64,000 nucleotides of DNA, taken from assembly GCF_006064855.1 (NCBI RefSeq), contig NZ_CP040753.1:1054001-1118000 (forward strand), given 5' to 3'. Numbering within the stretch: the stretch's first letter is position 1; each line of letters opens with the position of its first letter. A model generated the notes under the pieces. That model saw only the letters and a program-made list of their open reading frames with translations, had not been told where the DNA came from and did no database searches. Positions 15,849 to 52,727 of this stretch are shown here, piece by piece. Both the position numbers and the translations under genes were made by a program. Source of the stretch: Sulfitobacter sp. BSw21498. Lineage in GTDB: Bacteria; Pseudomonadota; Alphaproteobacteria; Rhodobacterales; Rhodobacteraceae.

Positions 15849-16413
15849 AGGAAAACGGCTGTTCAAGGGTTCAAAAGTAGTGACCTGCCCCCCGAGGCTC
15901 CCTCATTCATAGTGAGAGTTTGCGGGTTTGGATTTCATATTCTTCATCGTCATTTTGGGCAAGCGCGTCGTGTGCGGTGCCCTCAAATTGCTCAAGCGCA
16001 CGGCGCGCTTCAGCAGGTGCTTGGTTTCCGAGTGATGAGTGCGGTCTGACGTTGTTGTAATCGTATCGCCAGAGAGCCAGCTTGCGGCGAGCATCATCCA
16101 AGGTGTCGAAGATCTCCTCGTTGAGCAGCTCGTCGCGCAGGCTGCCGTTGAAGCTTTCGATGAAGGCATTCTGCTGCGGTTTGCCCGGATCGATATAATG
16201 CCAATCAACATCGTTATCGCCAGCCCACTTCAGGATCGCACGACTGGTGAACTCTGTGCCGTTATCACTGACGATACAGGCAGGCTTTCCATAAACGCGC
16301 ACAAGCGCATCTAACTCGCGTGCCACCCTCGCACCTGAGATGCTGGTATCGGCCATCAGGCACAGGTTCTCACGGCAGCAGTCGTCATTCACTGCCAGCA
16401 TGCGGAACTTGCG

Positions 16414-16454
16414 CCCCTCTCATGGTTTGTAAACAAACCACTGCCGGGCAGCGG
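16414..16454. repeat. Palindromic insert C in IS3 copy 1
   Basis: These 41 bases replace 2 bases of the sibling copy. They contain TGGTTTGT-AA-ACAAACCA (8-bp perfect stem) and CTGCC-G-GGCAG. The edges CCCCTCTC and CTGCCGGGCAG match the edge blocks of the other inserts, while the stem differs. Confidence 0.75.
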
Positions 16455-16758
16455 ATGCGCCGAACGTATCAGACACAAAATCCAACGACCAACGCTCGCC
16501 TGGGCGCAAAGCCACAGGCATAGGTGTCCGCGATCCACGCGCACGTTTACGGCCTCTGCGCCGCCTGACACCCAGCTTTTCCTCGGTGTAGAGACGATAC
16601 AGCTTCTTGTGGTTCATAATCATGCCTTTGCGTTCCAACAGCACGCCAATCCGGCGATAGCCGAACCGACGCCGTTTGTTGGCAATCGCCTTCATCTCTT
16701 CGCGAACTTCAGGATTATCCGGCGGCTTGTCGCGCCGAACGGTCTTGGGATCGACACC

Positions 16759-16794
16759 CGTTGCCCTCTCACACATGCTCGCATGTGTGAGAGG
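16759..16794. repeat. Palindromic insert B in IS3 copy 1 (perfect 15-bp stem)
   Basis: Thirty-six bases absent from the sibling copy. CCCTCTCACACATGC (16764-16778) and GCATGTGTGAGAGGG (16781-16795) are perfect complements separated by only TC. The insertion keeps the reading frame and adds 12 codons. It shares CCCTCTC with the other inserts but lacks the CTGCCG block. Confidence 0.8.
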
Positions 16795-16996
16795 GACCAG
16801 CCTGCACGCACGACGTTGCGAGATATCATGATCCCGCATCGCCTTGCGTGCTACAGCCCGTCGCACATTCGGTGTCGTCAGCTCTTTCCCAGCAAATCCT
16901 TCAGAACAACGTTATCGAGCATCGTATCGGCCAGCAGACGCTTCAGCTTCGCGTTCTCATCTTCCAGCGATTTAAGCCGGTGGGTGTCTGACACGT

Positions 16997-17182
16997 TCAC
17001 TCTCGGGACATTGCTGCGCAATACCCTGCCGTGCAACGCATGCCGCCATACTTGGCTTTGAGCTTGTAAAACGACGCCGGGCTCAGGCCATGCCTACGAC
17101 ACACCTCTGCCGTCGGCATCCCAGCTTCCTGTTCTTTGATCATCCCGATTATTTGGGCTTCGGTAAATCGGCTCTGTCGCAT
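16997..17182 (-). pseudogene. Transposase orfA of IS3 copy 1, truncated by insert A
   Basis: The first 48 residues ([20 protein letters not shown]...) match the helix-turn-helix protein of copy 2. After YGGM the frame runs into insert A and stops 13 codons later, removing the leucine-zipper part ([18 protein letters not shown] in the sibling). Confidence 0.88.
17000..17040. repeat. Palindromic insert A in IS3 copy 1
   Basis: Forty-one bases absent from the sibling. It contains ATTGC-TGC-GCAAT extended by wobble pairs, bounded by CTCTCGGG on the left and ACCCTGCCG on the right. It is clearly homologous to insert D at 52040-52077, with which it shares CTCTCGGG, TGCTGCGCA and TACCCTGCCG in the same order. 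Confidence 0.8.
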
Positions 17183-17250
17183 TTGTTTGCTCCTTCAAAG
17201 GTTGAGCAAACTCTACATTAAACTGAGGGAAGTTTCGGGGGGCAGGTCAC

Positions 17251-17506
17251 CGGCCATCGAAAGTTCACCATGGCGACAAAGATCGACGCCTATTTTTGTG
17301 ATCCTCAGTCACCTTGGCAAAGAGGGAGTAATGAAAACACCAATCGACTTCTTCGCCAATACTTCCCGAAAGGCGTTGATATATCGGGCTTTAGTCAGGC
17401 CGAGCTGAGCGCCGTGGCCCGCCTGCTCAACGAGAGACCTCGAAAGACCTCGCAATATCAAACCCCCGCAGAGAAATTTGAAACGTGTCTTGCGGCGGTC
17501 CGTTGA
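17251..17506 (+). pseudogene. C-terminal fragment of an IS30-family transposase
   Basis: From the edge of IS3 copy 1 the frame reads CDPQSPWQRGSNENTNRLLR, QYFPKGVDISGFSQAEL and LLNERPRKTSQYQTPAE, the typical end of IS30 transposases, including the last part of the DDE domain (NENTN). Everything upstream is missing. An internal ATG at 17270 exists but a functional product is not expected. Confidence 0.85.
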
Positions 17507-50756: not shown

Positions 50757-51505
50757 GGTCACCTCTTTCCTTTTGTTTCAATTTTTTCTTGGCATACTCG
50801 CACAAAACACTTCAAGGCAACAATCAACTCGCAGCGCTTGTCTGTTCTATGACGTGCTATGTGATTACGAAAGCGAGCGGCTGGGATTGTAGCACCTGCA
50901 CCCCACCAATCGATCTCTAACGTCTGCATTGGCTCTTGGGATCAAGATGGGCGAGTCGGTGTTTGATATCCGTGACCTGCTTAGGCGGCATAGGGTCAAG
51001 GCGCTGTCATCCAGCTACACGCTTACGGCGACCTCAGCCGACGCGTCGTCAAGATCCTGCACATAGACCAGATTTGTGCAGGCGACTACCAGCTCAACGG
51101 TAAGGTATTCCGCGGTGCTCCCACTCAAGAGCGCTCAATAAACCCGTTTTTCTGGAACGGCTTGAGAAGGGTCGTTTTTAGGCTGCCAAAAACCCCATTA
51201 AAAACTCAAGCAGTTGTTGAAGGTTTTTGGCTCTCTCGTGTCAGTAGAAATTAGCTGCATTGCAGAATGTCAATAAACAGGGCTCGAAGCGGACCTCTGC
51301 CACGCCACCAGATTTACGATGCGCGGACAATCTCCGCGGGTCGAAGCCCCGCCAGTCGCACCTCGTGCCACCGGATGTAGCCGTTCAGGTTCTTGCTGGC
51401 CGGCCCACAAAACGGCAAGATGAACCTCATGTGTTGGCTGTCACCTAAAATTGACCCGATTATTGCTACAGAGATTTAATCCGCTCAGTCGTTATGCTTT
51501 GTTGG
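50757..51505. other. Gap with a polymerase scrap and other debris
   Basis: Apart from the umuC fragment at 50926-51060, the segment 51270-51450 holds repeat or IS-like debris (CAGGGCTCGAAGCGGACCTC) that I cannot assign. No intact gene is seen. Confidence 0.4.
50926..51060 (+). pseudogene. umuC: Fragment of a Y-family DNA polymerase gene (umuC-like)
   Basis: The translation ALALGIKMGESVFDIRDLLR then RHRVKALSSSYTL is followed, after a one-base frame change, by YGDLSRRVVKIL. This matches the UmuC segment GIxMGxPxFxVRDL...SSNYxLYGDMSxRVM. Only about 45 codons remain. No umuD is adjacent. Confidence 0.6.
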
Positions 51506-51794
51506 TCATGATATGGTCAAAGCTGGTGTGTCCTTTCGTTTCTGTTTCGCGGTTTCGCAACTGGCTTTGAAACGGTAGCTGCCGTTTCCAGTCTCGAGGA
51601 TGCGGCCGCGATAGGTAAGTCGGTCAAGCAAGGCAGTGGTCATTTTGGTGCCACCGAAGGCTGGAGCTCCTTCGCTGAAGCTATGGTTGGTGGTGATAAT
51701 AGCGCTGGTTCGCTCGTAAAGCTTGCTGAGAAGGTGGAACAACAAAGCACCGCCTGAGGTACTGAAAGGCAGATCGCCCAGCTCGTCTATCACC

Positions 51795-51832
51795 CGGCAG
51801 GCGATTGCGTAGCAATCCGCCGGGAGGGCCAG
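51795..51832. repeat. Palindromic insert F in istB, flanked by 6-bp direct repeats
   Basis: The 38-base insert contains GCGATTGC-GTA-GCAATCCGC, starts CGGCAG and ends CGGGAGGG-CCAG. ATCACC stands on both sides (51789-51794 and 51833-51838), like a target duplication. Read on the other strand it has the same order of blocks as inserts A and D (ATTGCTACGCAAT then CCTGCCG). Confidence 0.75.
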
Positions 51833-51978
51833 ATCACCAAATCCGCCTTGATCAGTGCCTCAACGATCTTCCCGGCTTTGCCCTGAACCTTTTCCTGCTC
51901 CAGCGTATTGACCAGTTCGACCGTCGAGAAGAAGCGCACGCGCTTGCGGTGATGTTCTATGGCCTGAACGCCAAGGCT

Positions 51979-52006
51979 CACGCCGAAGGCGTGCGGATCG
52001 CACGAC
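51979..52006. repeat. Palindromic insert E in istB
   Basis: About 28 bases that interrupt the segment between Walker A and LGVQAIEHH. It contains CACGCC-GAA-GGCGTG and TGCG-GATC-GCA. It lacks the CTCTC and CTGCCG blocks, so it may be a different type. Its limits are inferred from IstB family sequence and are uncertain by a few bases. Confidence 0.5.
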
Positions 52007-52039
52007 CGCGACGTGCGATTTGCCCGTGCTAGGACCGCC

Positions 52040-52077
52040 CCCTCTCGGGCATGCTGCGCATACCCTGCCGAGCAGTG
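52040..52077. repeat. Palindromic insert D in istB, homologous to insert A
   Basis: The 38 bases split VVLI from the Walker A GGP. They carry CCCTCTCGGG, stem GGGCATGC-TGC-GCATACCC (8 pairs, one G-U) and CTGCCGAGCAG. The block order and most bases match insert A in the unrelated IS3 copy 1. Confidence 0.78.
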
Positions 52078-52436
52078 GATCAAGACGACATTCTCAGCCG
52101 CGTCCGTGAACTCGCAACGATGCAGTTGGCGCACGAGGGCCTCGTTGATCTCACTGGCCGCGAAGGTAAAGCCAGAGCGATCCTTGTAGGCTGGGAAGCG
52201 GGCGGCCTTCATATGATAAGCGATCGAGCGCACTTCGCGCTCAGCCATCTCACCTTTGAGGCGTTGCGAGAGTATCGGGACCGCTGCATCAAACGCAGAT
52301 GCCCCTTGTTCAAGCAGATCCCCAACAGAGGTGGTACGCCCTTTTACGAAACCCGCCATTAGCAGGTCGGCAAATGCTCCTTTACCACCTTTGCCAGAGG
52401 GCAATTTTAGAGTGCTTGGCCGGAGACGCCTGACAG

Positions 52437-52727
52437 GTGGGAACGTACGGAAATCATATCAATCTTTCAAAGTTCTTGAACACCTTTCCAAAGGACCAAC
52501 GTGATTGGAGGAAAAATAAATCTTATGGAGCTCCACGGAAGATTGAGATTGACTGGGGCGGACCGCAACCGATCCTGATCGATATTGATGGATCCAAAGC
52601 CATCTTCCGAGGACGCGGGTGGGTACGGCGCTTCTTTGAAGCGTCGAAAGCAAAAGAAGGTGATTATGTGCTGATTACGGAGACTGCCACCTACAAGGTT
52701 TCGGTGCGCTTGGAGCGCGGAGAGTGA
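52437..52727 (+). CDS. Small hypothetical protein
   Basis: The 96-residue frame starts at a GTG without a clear ribosome binding site. It reads APRKIEIDWGGPQPILIDID and GWVRRFFEASKAKEGDYVLI then TETATYKVSVRLERGE. The C-terminal half looks like a small beta domain that could bind nucleic acid, as in some mobile-element proteins, but no family is recognised. It follows the istB remnant directly and may itself be a fragment. Confidence 0.45.
   Translation: MGTYGNHINLSKFLNTFPKDQRDWRKNKSYGAPRKIEIDWGGPQPILIDIDGSKAIFRGRGWVRRFFEASKAKEGDYVLITETATYKVSVRLERGE

Follow-up and report, generated by a model that had tools for sequence, protein, structure and literature searches.

Short palindromic hairpins inserted in insertion sequences: a probable family of non-autonomous mobile DNA in Rhodobacteraceae

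For decades, bacteria have been known to carry small palindromic repeats. Among these repeats, REP elements are thought to be moved by Y1 transposases in trans, as a folded single strand. Rickettsia palindromic elements (RPE) are palindromic inserts inside the protein genes of an alphaproteobacterium, and RPE-1 is longer than the hairpins described here and lies mostly in frame in functional genes, whereas our hairpins measure 34-45 nt and have lengths that are mostly frame-shifting. Group II introns often sit inside other mobile elements, and the byps of yeast mitochondria are translational bypass elements. Our hairpins are similar to group II introns in their location within mobile elements, but 34-45 nt leaves no room for intron domains or an RT. 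They also differ from a MITE of a known IS, since their edges are asymmetric, unlike terminal inverted repeats, and they show no target-site duplication over 2 bp.

In the sections of PMC3733652 drawn on here, REP (GTAG) and CGTC palindromes are described as small hairpins of a few tens of bases, present in many copies and without a protein; some of these repeats lie within genes, the CGTC repeats have no known transposase, and Rickettsia palindromic elements are named. Compared with the repeats described in those sections, our hairpins are likewise small, non-coding and multicopy, but they have neither a GTAG nor a CGTC end, and their constant edges enclose a stem that is different at most sites. 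A preliminary description of this DNA had likened them to REP-type palindromes, and this likeness holds in kind (a small palindrome) but not for the ends, the Y1 gene or the extragenic location. The excerpt of PMC4478555 used here presents GC42 of yeast mitochondria as a 42-nt mobile palindrome that proliferates, has a constrained structure and has a putative AG target-site duplication. As far as that excerpt goes, our hairpins are similar to GC42 as a mobile and proliferating palindrome, and unlike it they show no AG duplication (none over 2 bp) and reside in bacterial IS, not in mitochondria. No description of the hairpin family was found in the open-access library searched, which covers few subscription papers and no preprints, and we read the family as undescribed, with a strong IS preference.

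Hairpin inserts in an IS3 copy and an istB remnant

The window is the whole stretch of DNA analysed, 64,000 nucleotides of the genome of the marine bacterium Sulfitobacter sp. BSw21498. The features concerned are as follows, the last of them lying elsewhere in the same genome.

15850..17250, − strand: IS3-family copy carrying inserts A, B and C; host part under past purifying selection, transposase frames now broken
16998..17038, + strand: insert A, of the 41-nt class, in IS3 orfA (gene on the − strand); frame-shifting
16759..16794, − strand: insert B, 36 nt, in IS3 orfB; the window copy is edge-converted into a perfect palindrome
16415..16453, + strand: insert C, 39 nt, in IS3 orfB; supplies an in-frame TGA
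51400..52700, − strand: istB remnant (IS21 helper ATPase) carrying inserts D and F and the non-family insert E
52040..52077, + strand: insert D, 38 nt, in istB just ahead of the Walker A segment (by eye); frame-shifting
51788..51828, − strand: insert F, 41 nt, in istB, in the orientation opposite to insert D
Genome 1751402-1751438: second copy of insert B, in canonical form

Alignments with insert-free relatives showed that A (41 nt), B (36 nt) and C (39 nt) in the IS3, as well as D (38 nt), E (25 nt net) and F (41 nt) in istB, are extra DNA. Insert A is missing from the IS3 relatives L001-L003 and L006, and also from three copies of the same IS3 that carry C only and from one insert-free copy. 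Insert C is present in three IS3 copies of another species of the genus and absent from its intact copy (L360), and D is missing from the istB relatives L004 and L005. The possibility that the inserts, or the blocks that they share, are normal parts of IS3 and IS21 sequence was rejected, since the insert-free relatives are without them, and an assembly artefact was rejected too, as many genomes and plasmids, independent of one another, carry the same elements. Host frames are otherwise intact, with no other indel in the IS3 of the window or in that of the genome G074.

The preliminary description had reported blocks shared by A, C, D and F, with constant edges and a variable stem. These blocks are present, and the inserts form one family in unrelated IS genes (IS3 and istB). 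The position first given for D stands, while A, C and F are shifted to the coordinates listed above, and orfA is the correct host gene for A, whereas C sits in orfB. Insert B is also a member, its second genomic copy being canonical. In the window copy of B, one edge is replaced by the reverse complement of the other edge, and the two genomic copies differ at this converted edge by a block of four adjacent bases.

Two covariance models (R1 and R2) recovered A, C, D and F in the window with E-values of 2e-8 to 3e-10 (better model for each) and B with an E-value of 0.047, and these matches are partly by construction because A, B, C, D and F are all within the 42 training rows of the two models. 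As training rows, A scored 62.2 bits (R1), D 42.1 bits (R1) and 51.5 bits (R2), F 52.4 bits (R1) and the second copy of B 49.4 bits; the window copy of B scored 19.5 bits (R2).

Insert E (window 51970-52020, 25 nt net) was rejected as a member of the family, contrary to the earlier proposal: it matched neither covariance model at E up to 1 in the window search, and by eye it consists of inverted copies of its own flanking istB sequence, as from strand switching. Also by eye, the insert-bearing IS3 sits within a fragment resembling an IS30 transposase (window 17230-17400 and L011). The two A+B+C copies of this IS3 in the BSw21498 genome have about 118 bp of flank in common, and may thus be a segmental duplication and not two transpositions.

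Anatomy, insertion sites and distribution of the family

In its canonical form, the element is bounded by a 5′ edge, CCCTCTC, and a 3′ edge, CTGCCGGGCARYG, the CCC of one edge pairing with the GGG of the other. Between the edges lies a self-complementary stem, about 7-11 bp long, which closes on a short loop. Our set of 83 canonical hits with distinct flanks came from selected loci, was hairpin-filtered and includes a few near-copies (e.g., L221-L223); all of them have the edges CCCTCTC and GGCARYG, by which they were chosen. Their lengths range from 34 to 45 nt and are mostly 37-41 nt (41 nt in 31 hits, 38 nt in 15, 37 nt in 14, 39 nt in eight, 43 nt in seven, others in eight), in place of the 38-44 bp first proposed, and are divisible by three in 12 of the 83. 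As previously suggested, the element has no protein of its own.

The hit list had passed a Watson-Crick stem filter, which inflates pairing and disfavours G-T. Under this filter, paired cells amount to 97.7% of 264 in 22 elements of the 41-nt class and to 88.3% of 214 in 20 elements of 37-39 nt, and G-U pairs make up 2 of the 478 cells across both sets. The structure of the 41-nt class comprises the CCC-GGG helix on the outside, then a 3-bp helix, one bulged base and a helix of 6 bp; two-sided changes account for 33 of its 264 cells and one-sided changes for none. There are 44 two-sided changes and a single one-sided change in the 37-39 nt set, where columns 8 and 27 fail to pair in 13 of the 20 elements and two of five shuffle measures are unexceptional (80 and 85 of 500 shuffles reach them). 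The 5′ edge recurs, exactly inverted, as the 3′ edge at two places in the BSw21498 genome, namely in insert B of the window and at L028 6153. The simplest reading of such an edge conversion is that one arm was overwritten from the other by strand switching. Taken with these edge conversions, the almost exclusively two-sided stem changes suggest copying of one arm from the other, either before or after insertion, in agreement with the earlier idea of a recurrently templated hairpin. Stem diversity would then arise when one arm mutates and the change is copied into its partner by self-templating.

When A and D were folded alone as RNA or single strands, their stability did not exceed that of shuffles (z −0.1 to −1.6). 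A role as RNA was rejected, as Rfam gave no match at E up to 1 for an IS3 carrying nine inserts (described below) and only two tRNAs in the window at gathering scores.

Genome-wide, the pattern CTCTCGGGN{4,24}CTGCCG has six matches versus none for the reversed control, and CTCTCN{12,30}CTGCCGNGC has 13 versus one. Within the window, the looser pattern CCTCTCN{8,30}CTGCC is weakly unusual (three matches, one lacking a hairpin; three are attained in 4 of 100 shuffles), and the case for the family is a genome-wide and comparative one. We searched the 3.24-Mb genome with the two covariance models at E up to 0.1 and found matches at at least 22 and at least 18 places, with at least 27 in their union, a census that may be incomplete since 150 of 3133 and 150 of 2203 candidates were scored and weaker copies, in or outside IS, may be missed. 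Two further converted copies, from the window search and by eye, come on top of these. Further copies thus exist, as the preliminary description had led us to expect, and whereas REP elements are mainly extragenic, 26 of the 27 matches in this genome lie within IS sequence, among the matches listed. The hosts and the exception are given below.

IS3 copies (several matches) and istB (D and F)
1282 kb: DDE_Tnp_1 gene, with two elements
1740 kb: host IS3 orfA-like by eye, no Pfam match
1741 kb: IS110-type gene
1931 kb: IS3-type gene
2991018 (L293 1501-1664): element beside a small SRP RNA gene (RF00169, L293 1567-1664), about 25 bases away

The element beside the SRP RNA gene is the sole copy outside IS among the 27 model matches listed. 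A second hairpin lies alongside the element-like hairpin at this locus.

The IS3 at about 1789.5-1791.3 kb (L028 4500-6300) carries nine inserts with nine different stems in 1.44 kb. Compared with its insert-free relatives, it has no deletion, one further insertion of 9 nt near one end, and one nonsense codon, which lies in orfB. Its divergence by codon position is 30, 18 and 139, and since this is mostly third-position, most of the divergence is older than the inserts.

The IS3 of the window also occurs in another species of the genus (G039), as one insert-free copy (L360) with both frames open and three copies with C but without A or B, while the window's genome has two copies with A+B+C. 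Over 1253 positions of the host part, L360 differs from the two A+B+C copies at 8 and 11 and from the three C-only copies at 5 to 8. This series from intact to C to A+B+C at about 99% identity indicates that units of 36-41 nt entered stepwise within about 1% divergence; it would also be compatible with the inserts arriving by recombination with other filled IS copies. Insert A is a 41-nt insertion with a 2-nt end ambiguity (the junction being exact versus two of the three C-only copies), or in an alternative reading a 39-nt unit with a 2-bp repeat, and insert B is a 36-nt insertion with no end ambiguity versus all three C-only copies. Insert C adds 39 nt net, and a neighbouring base differs in L360, which may be a third-codon change or one lost target base. 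A target duplication, which had been raised as a possibility, was not found above 2 bp where the empty site is known (none for B, at most 2 bp for A).

Seven more insertions in three other IS (one in G021, four in G074 and two in Dinoroseobacter shibae) appear as gaps in insert-free relatives. Those of G074 are 38, 40, 38 and 38 nt long, both of D. shibae are 41 nt, and that of G021 is 42 nt net and in frame; none has an evident target repeat versus relatives at 73-89% identity. An identical 41-nt element occupies two different sites in G010, both in one IS3 type. Hence, as is general for mobile hairpins, the same unit is found at different sites and empty homologous sites exist, and as filled and empty sites are about 99% identical, the mobility supposed in the preliminary description is supported.

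The insertion sites are of the type Y|GAY. Across the 83 hits, the host base on the left of the element is C (66), T (13) or A (four) and never G; on the right, the first base is G in 69, the second A in 45 and the third T in 37 or C in 26, against a flank background of 21-29% per base. Relative to the host gene, 19 inserts are sense and 15 antisense (n = 34), and 18 of the 34 are in codon phase 0, some element starts being off by two bases.

The codon-usage score is unreliable for IS genes, and host calls therefore rest on Pfam and tblastn (by the codon-usage frame score, the strands of the left and right flanks agree in 12 cases and disagree in eight). Singly searched with Pfam, 60 of the 64 listed loci (all except L151, L186, L198 and L222) gave transposase domains in 34, other domains in three (GLF, SnoaL_4 and a weak HTH_23) and none in 23. 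We take the transposase domains at the 34 loci to represent IS3, IS5, IS6, IS66, IS110, IS256 and IS630, which with IS21 (istB) added makes about eight host IS families. After tblastn, 63 of the 83 loci are transposase-like, the queries' own loci included, and 20 have no such similarity.

Different stems can occupy one site. Five are found at the same site of homologous IS3 genes, with flanks 66-81% identical, and on viral-called contigs three share one site in a C5 DNA methyltransferase gene (L368 8880-8916, L383 1527-1563 and L379 5556-5594), identified by Pfam for one locus and by a similar translation for the other two. The 37-nt inserts in L368 and L383 keep the frame and would be translated, whereas the 39-nt insert in L379 breaks it. 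Other elements on such contigs adjoin transposases (L375, L382 and L391). A pattern scan of viral-called contigs returned 27 stretches, 17 of them with a match of stem score 4 or more, and one 47-nt query had no match at E up to 1 in the phages collection. In G437 (L337-L341), a long-stem variant occurs in five copies of a GC-rich repeat that is by eye not transposase-like.

The pattern CCTCTCN{12,30}CTGCCGGGCA is found in 42 of 62 genomes of the genus (reversed control in two) and in 134 of 394 genomes of the family (reversed control in 16), some of these matches being due to chance and without a hairpin, such as the sole match of G007. A stricter pattern is found in 5 of 385 sampled Alphaproteobacteria, comprising four of five family members and one of 380 others. 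A pattern scan of genome contigs returned at least 118 stretches, many of which match by chance and lack a hairpin. Among 72,556 plasmid records, 103 match a 45-nt element, and the ten genera named in the tally are roseobacters or their kin; the matches include pDSHI04 of Dinoroseobacter shibae and plasmids of Phaeobacter, Sulfitobacter, Ruegeria and Leisingera. No gene is annotated for 52 of the 60 plasmid matches listed, in a gene table that omits pseudogenes.

Fate of the carriers and mode of movement

The inserts usually break the host gene, and the carrier IS copies still multiply. G074 has six full IS copies, each with all four inserts, and no full-length insert-free relative by blastn. 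These six copies differ by 14 nonsynonymous and three synonymous changes (codon positions 6, 7 and 4), the copies in G030 by seven to three, and the two A+B+C copies of the BSw21498 genome by five to none, and from these counts substitutions in the transposase after insertion look neutral in three IS. Between the BSw21498 and G039 copies, which have C in common, there are two nonsynonymous and four synonymous changes, a small number, which could mean that C alone left some function. Broken IS copies are presumably moved by transposase in trans, which would come from intact copies; possible sources are the intact copy in G039 and, in the BSw21498 genome, 14 relatives with 80% identity whose length indicates that they carry no insert. 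Hence, the inserts seem to turn autonomous IS into non-autonomous ones.

An IS3 in G021 (L217-L220) carries one in-frame insert of 42 nt net, equal to a 41-nt element and one base. The four copies compared are 100% identical, and it is also present on a plasmid of Sulfitobacter sp. D7. The predicted transposase of this IS3 may still work.

We consider that the elements are a family of non-autonomous mobile DNA hairpins of Rhodobacteraceae, marked by their edges, Y|GAY sites and IS hosts and moved by an enzyme acting in trans, with a probability of about two in three. From the asymmetric edges with a hairpin, the insertion in either orientation, the lack of a duplication and the short motif, we infer a folded single strand that is joined to its target by such an enzyme. 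The unit goes in whole, in either orientation, at sites of the type Y|GAY. The moving form would be the folded single strand, with its edges recognised by the enzyme supplied in trans, though no such enzyme was found.

The same mobile hairpins might instead insert genome-wide without any preference for IS, and survive only in dispensable DNA such as dead IS and prophages. The Y|GAY motif is short and common, 20 of the 83 loci are without transposase similarity, and copies lie in a gene on viral-called contigs and beside the SRP RNA gene, while the neutral-looking substitutions after insertion indicate that the IS copies are dispensable DNA. However, the IS3 with nine inserts in 1.44 kb has no deletion and one nonsense codon, and A, B and C entered within about 1% divergence; at such an insertion rate very many copies would be expected in neutral intergenic DNA, and the models show one of 27 outside IS, among the matches listed. 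This makes insertion without preference somewhat unlikely. Inserts are dense compared with other lesions and nearly absent from DNA outside IS, which speaks for a preference for IS genes. Less certainly than for the family as such, we infer that IS genes are preferred targets and not only places where inserts survive, with selection alone as a possible cause of the bias. A host or mobile-element system might also disarm transposons by hairpin insertion, and the transposases of many unrelated IS families, the nine stems among nine inserts of one IS and the five stems at the same IS site would fit such a system. Against it, the carriers multiply (six copies with four inserts, three copies with C), the 14 relatives of the window IS3 in the BSw21498 genome carry no insert to judge by their length, IS genes are not the site of every insert and no machinery was found, so that we regard it as quite improbable.

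As to the enzyme, a Y1 (HUH) transposase, for example RAYT or an IS200/IS605 TnpA, might move the hairpins in trans as REP-type elements. Such elements would share the hairpin, the non-autonomous state and the lack of a target duplication, and the 18 genus genomes with a Y1 match average about 4.6 pattern matches versus about 1.8 in the other 44, which may only reflect IS load. The Y1 domain (PF01797), however, has no match in the BSw21498 genome (99.99% complete), where the suggested link to RAYT genes thus finds no counterpart, and it has matches in 18 of the 62 genus genomes (15 above the cut-off) while the element pattern is in 42; there is also no GTAG or CGTC end. Movement by a Y1 enzyme is therefore quite improbable, though one since lost may have acted. 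It is more improbable still that the inserts act as translational bypass elements or in the manner of introns, with the gene still functional, and we give this hardly any weight. The lack of further indels in the window IS3 and in that of G074, the four synonymous to two nonsynonymous changes between the BSw21498 and G039 copies, and the in-frame inserts that could be translated in two methyltransferase genes of viral-called contigs and in the G021 IS3 would be in line with bypass. But lengths are multiples of three in only 12 of the 83 elements, and the neutral ratios after insertion (14:3 in G074, 7:3 in G030 and 5:0 in the BSw21498 copies, nonsynonymous to synonymous), together with the occurrence of both orientations (19 to 15), argue against it.

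Implications

An undescribed machinery of Rhodobacteraceae might make short hairpins with self-templated, changing stems and insert them preferentially into transposase genes, as a DNA-writing restraint on transposons. We hold this to be unlikely. If it were true, incoming IS would be broken again and again, in the service of the host or by a parasite of IS. An IS-directed insertion machinery would be categorically new, whereas small mobile palindromes are already known.

For the family of mobile hairpins itself, such inserts may be easy to overlook, as most of the listed plasmid matches are without an annotated gene. The family bears on the question of what makes and moves those classes of small palindromes that have no RAYT. 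Since it is widespread, with filled and empty sites that are about 99% identical, clear edges, a target motif and culturable hosts, the movement of a gene-less 40-base element becomes testable.
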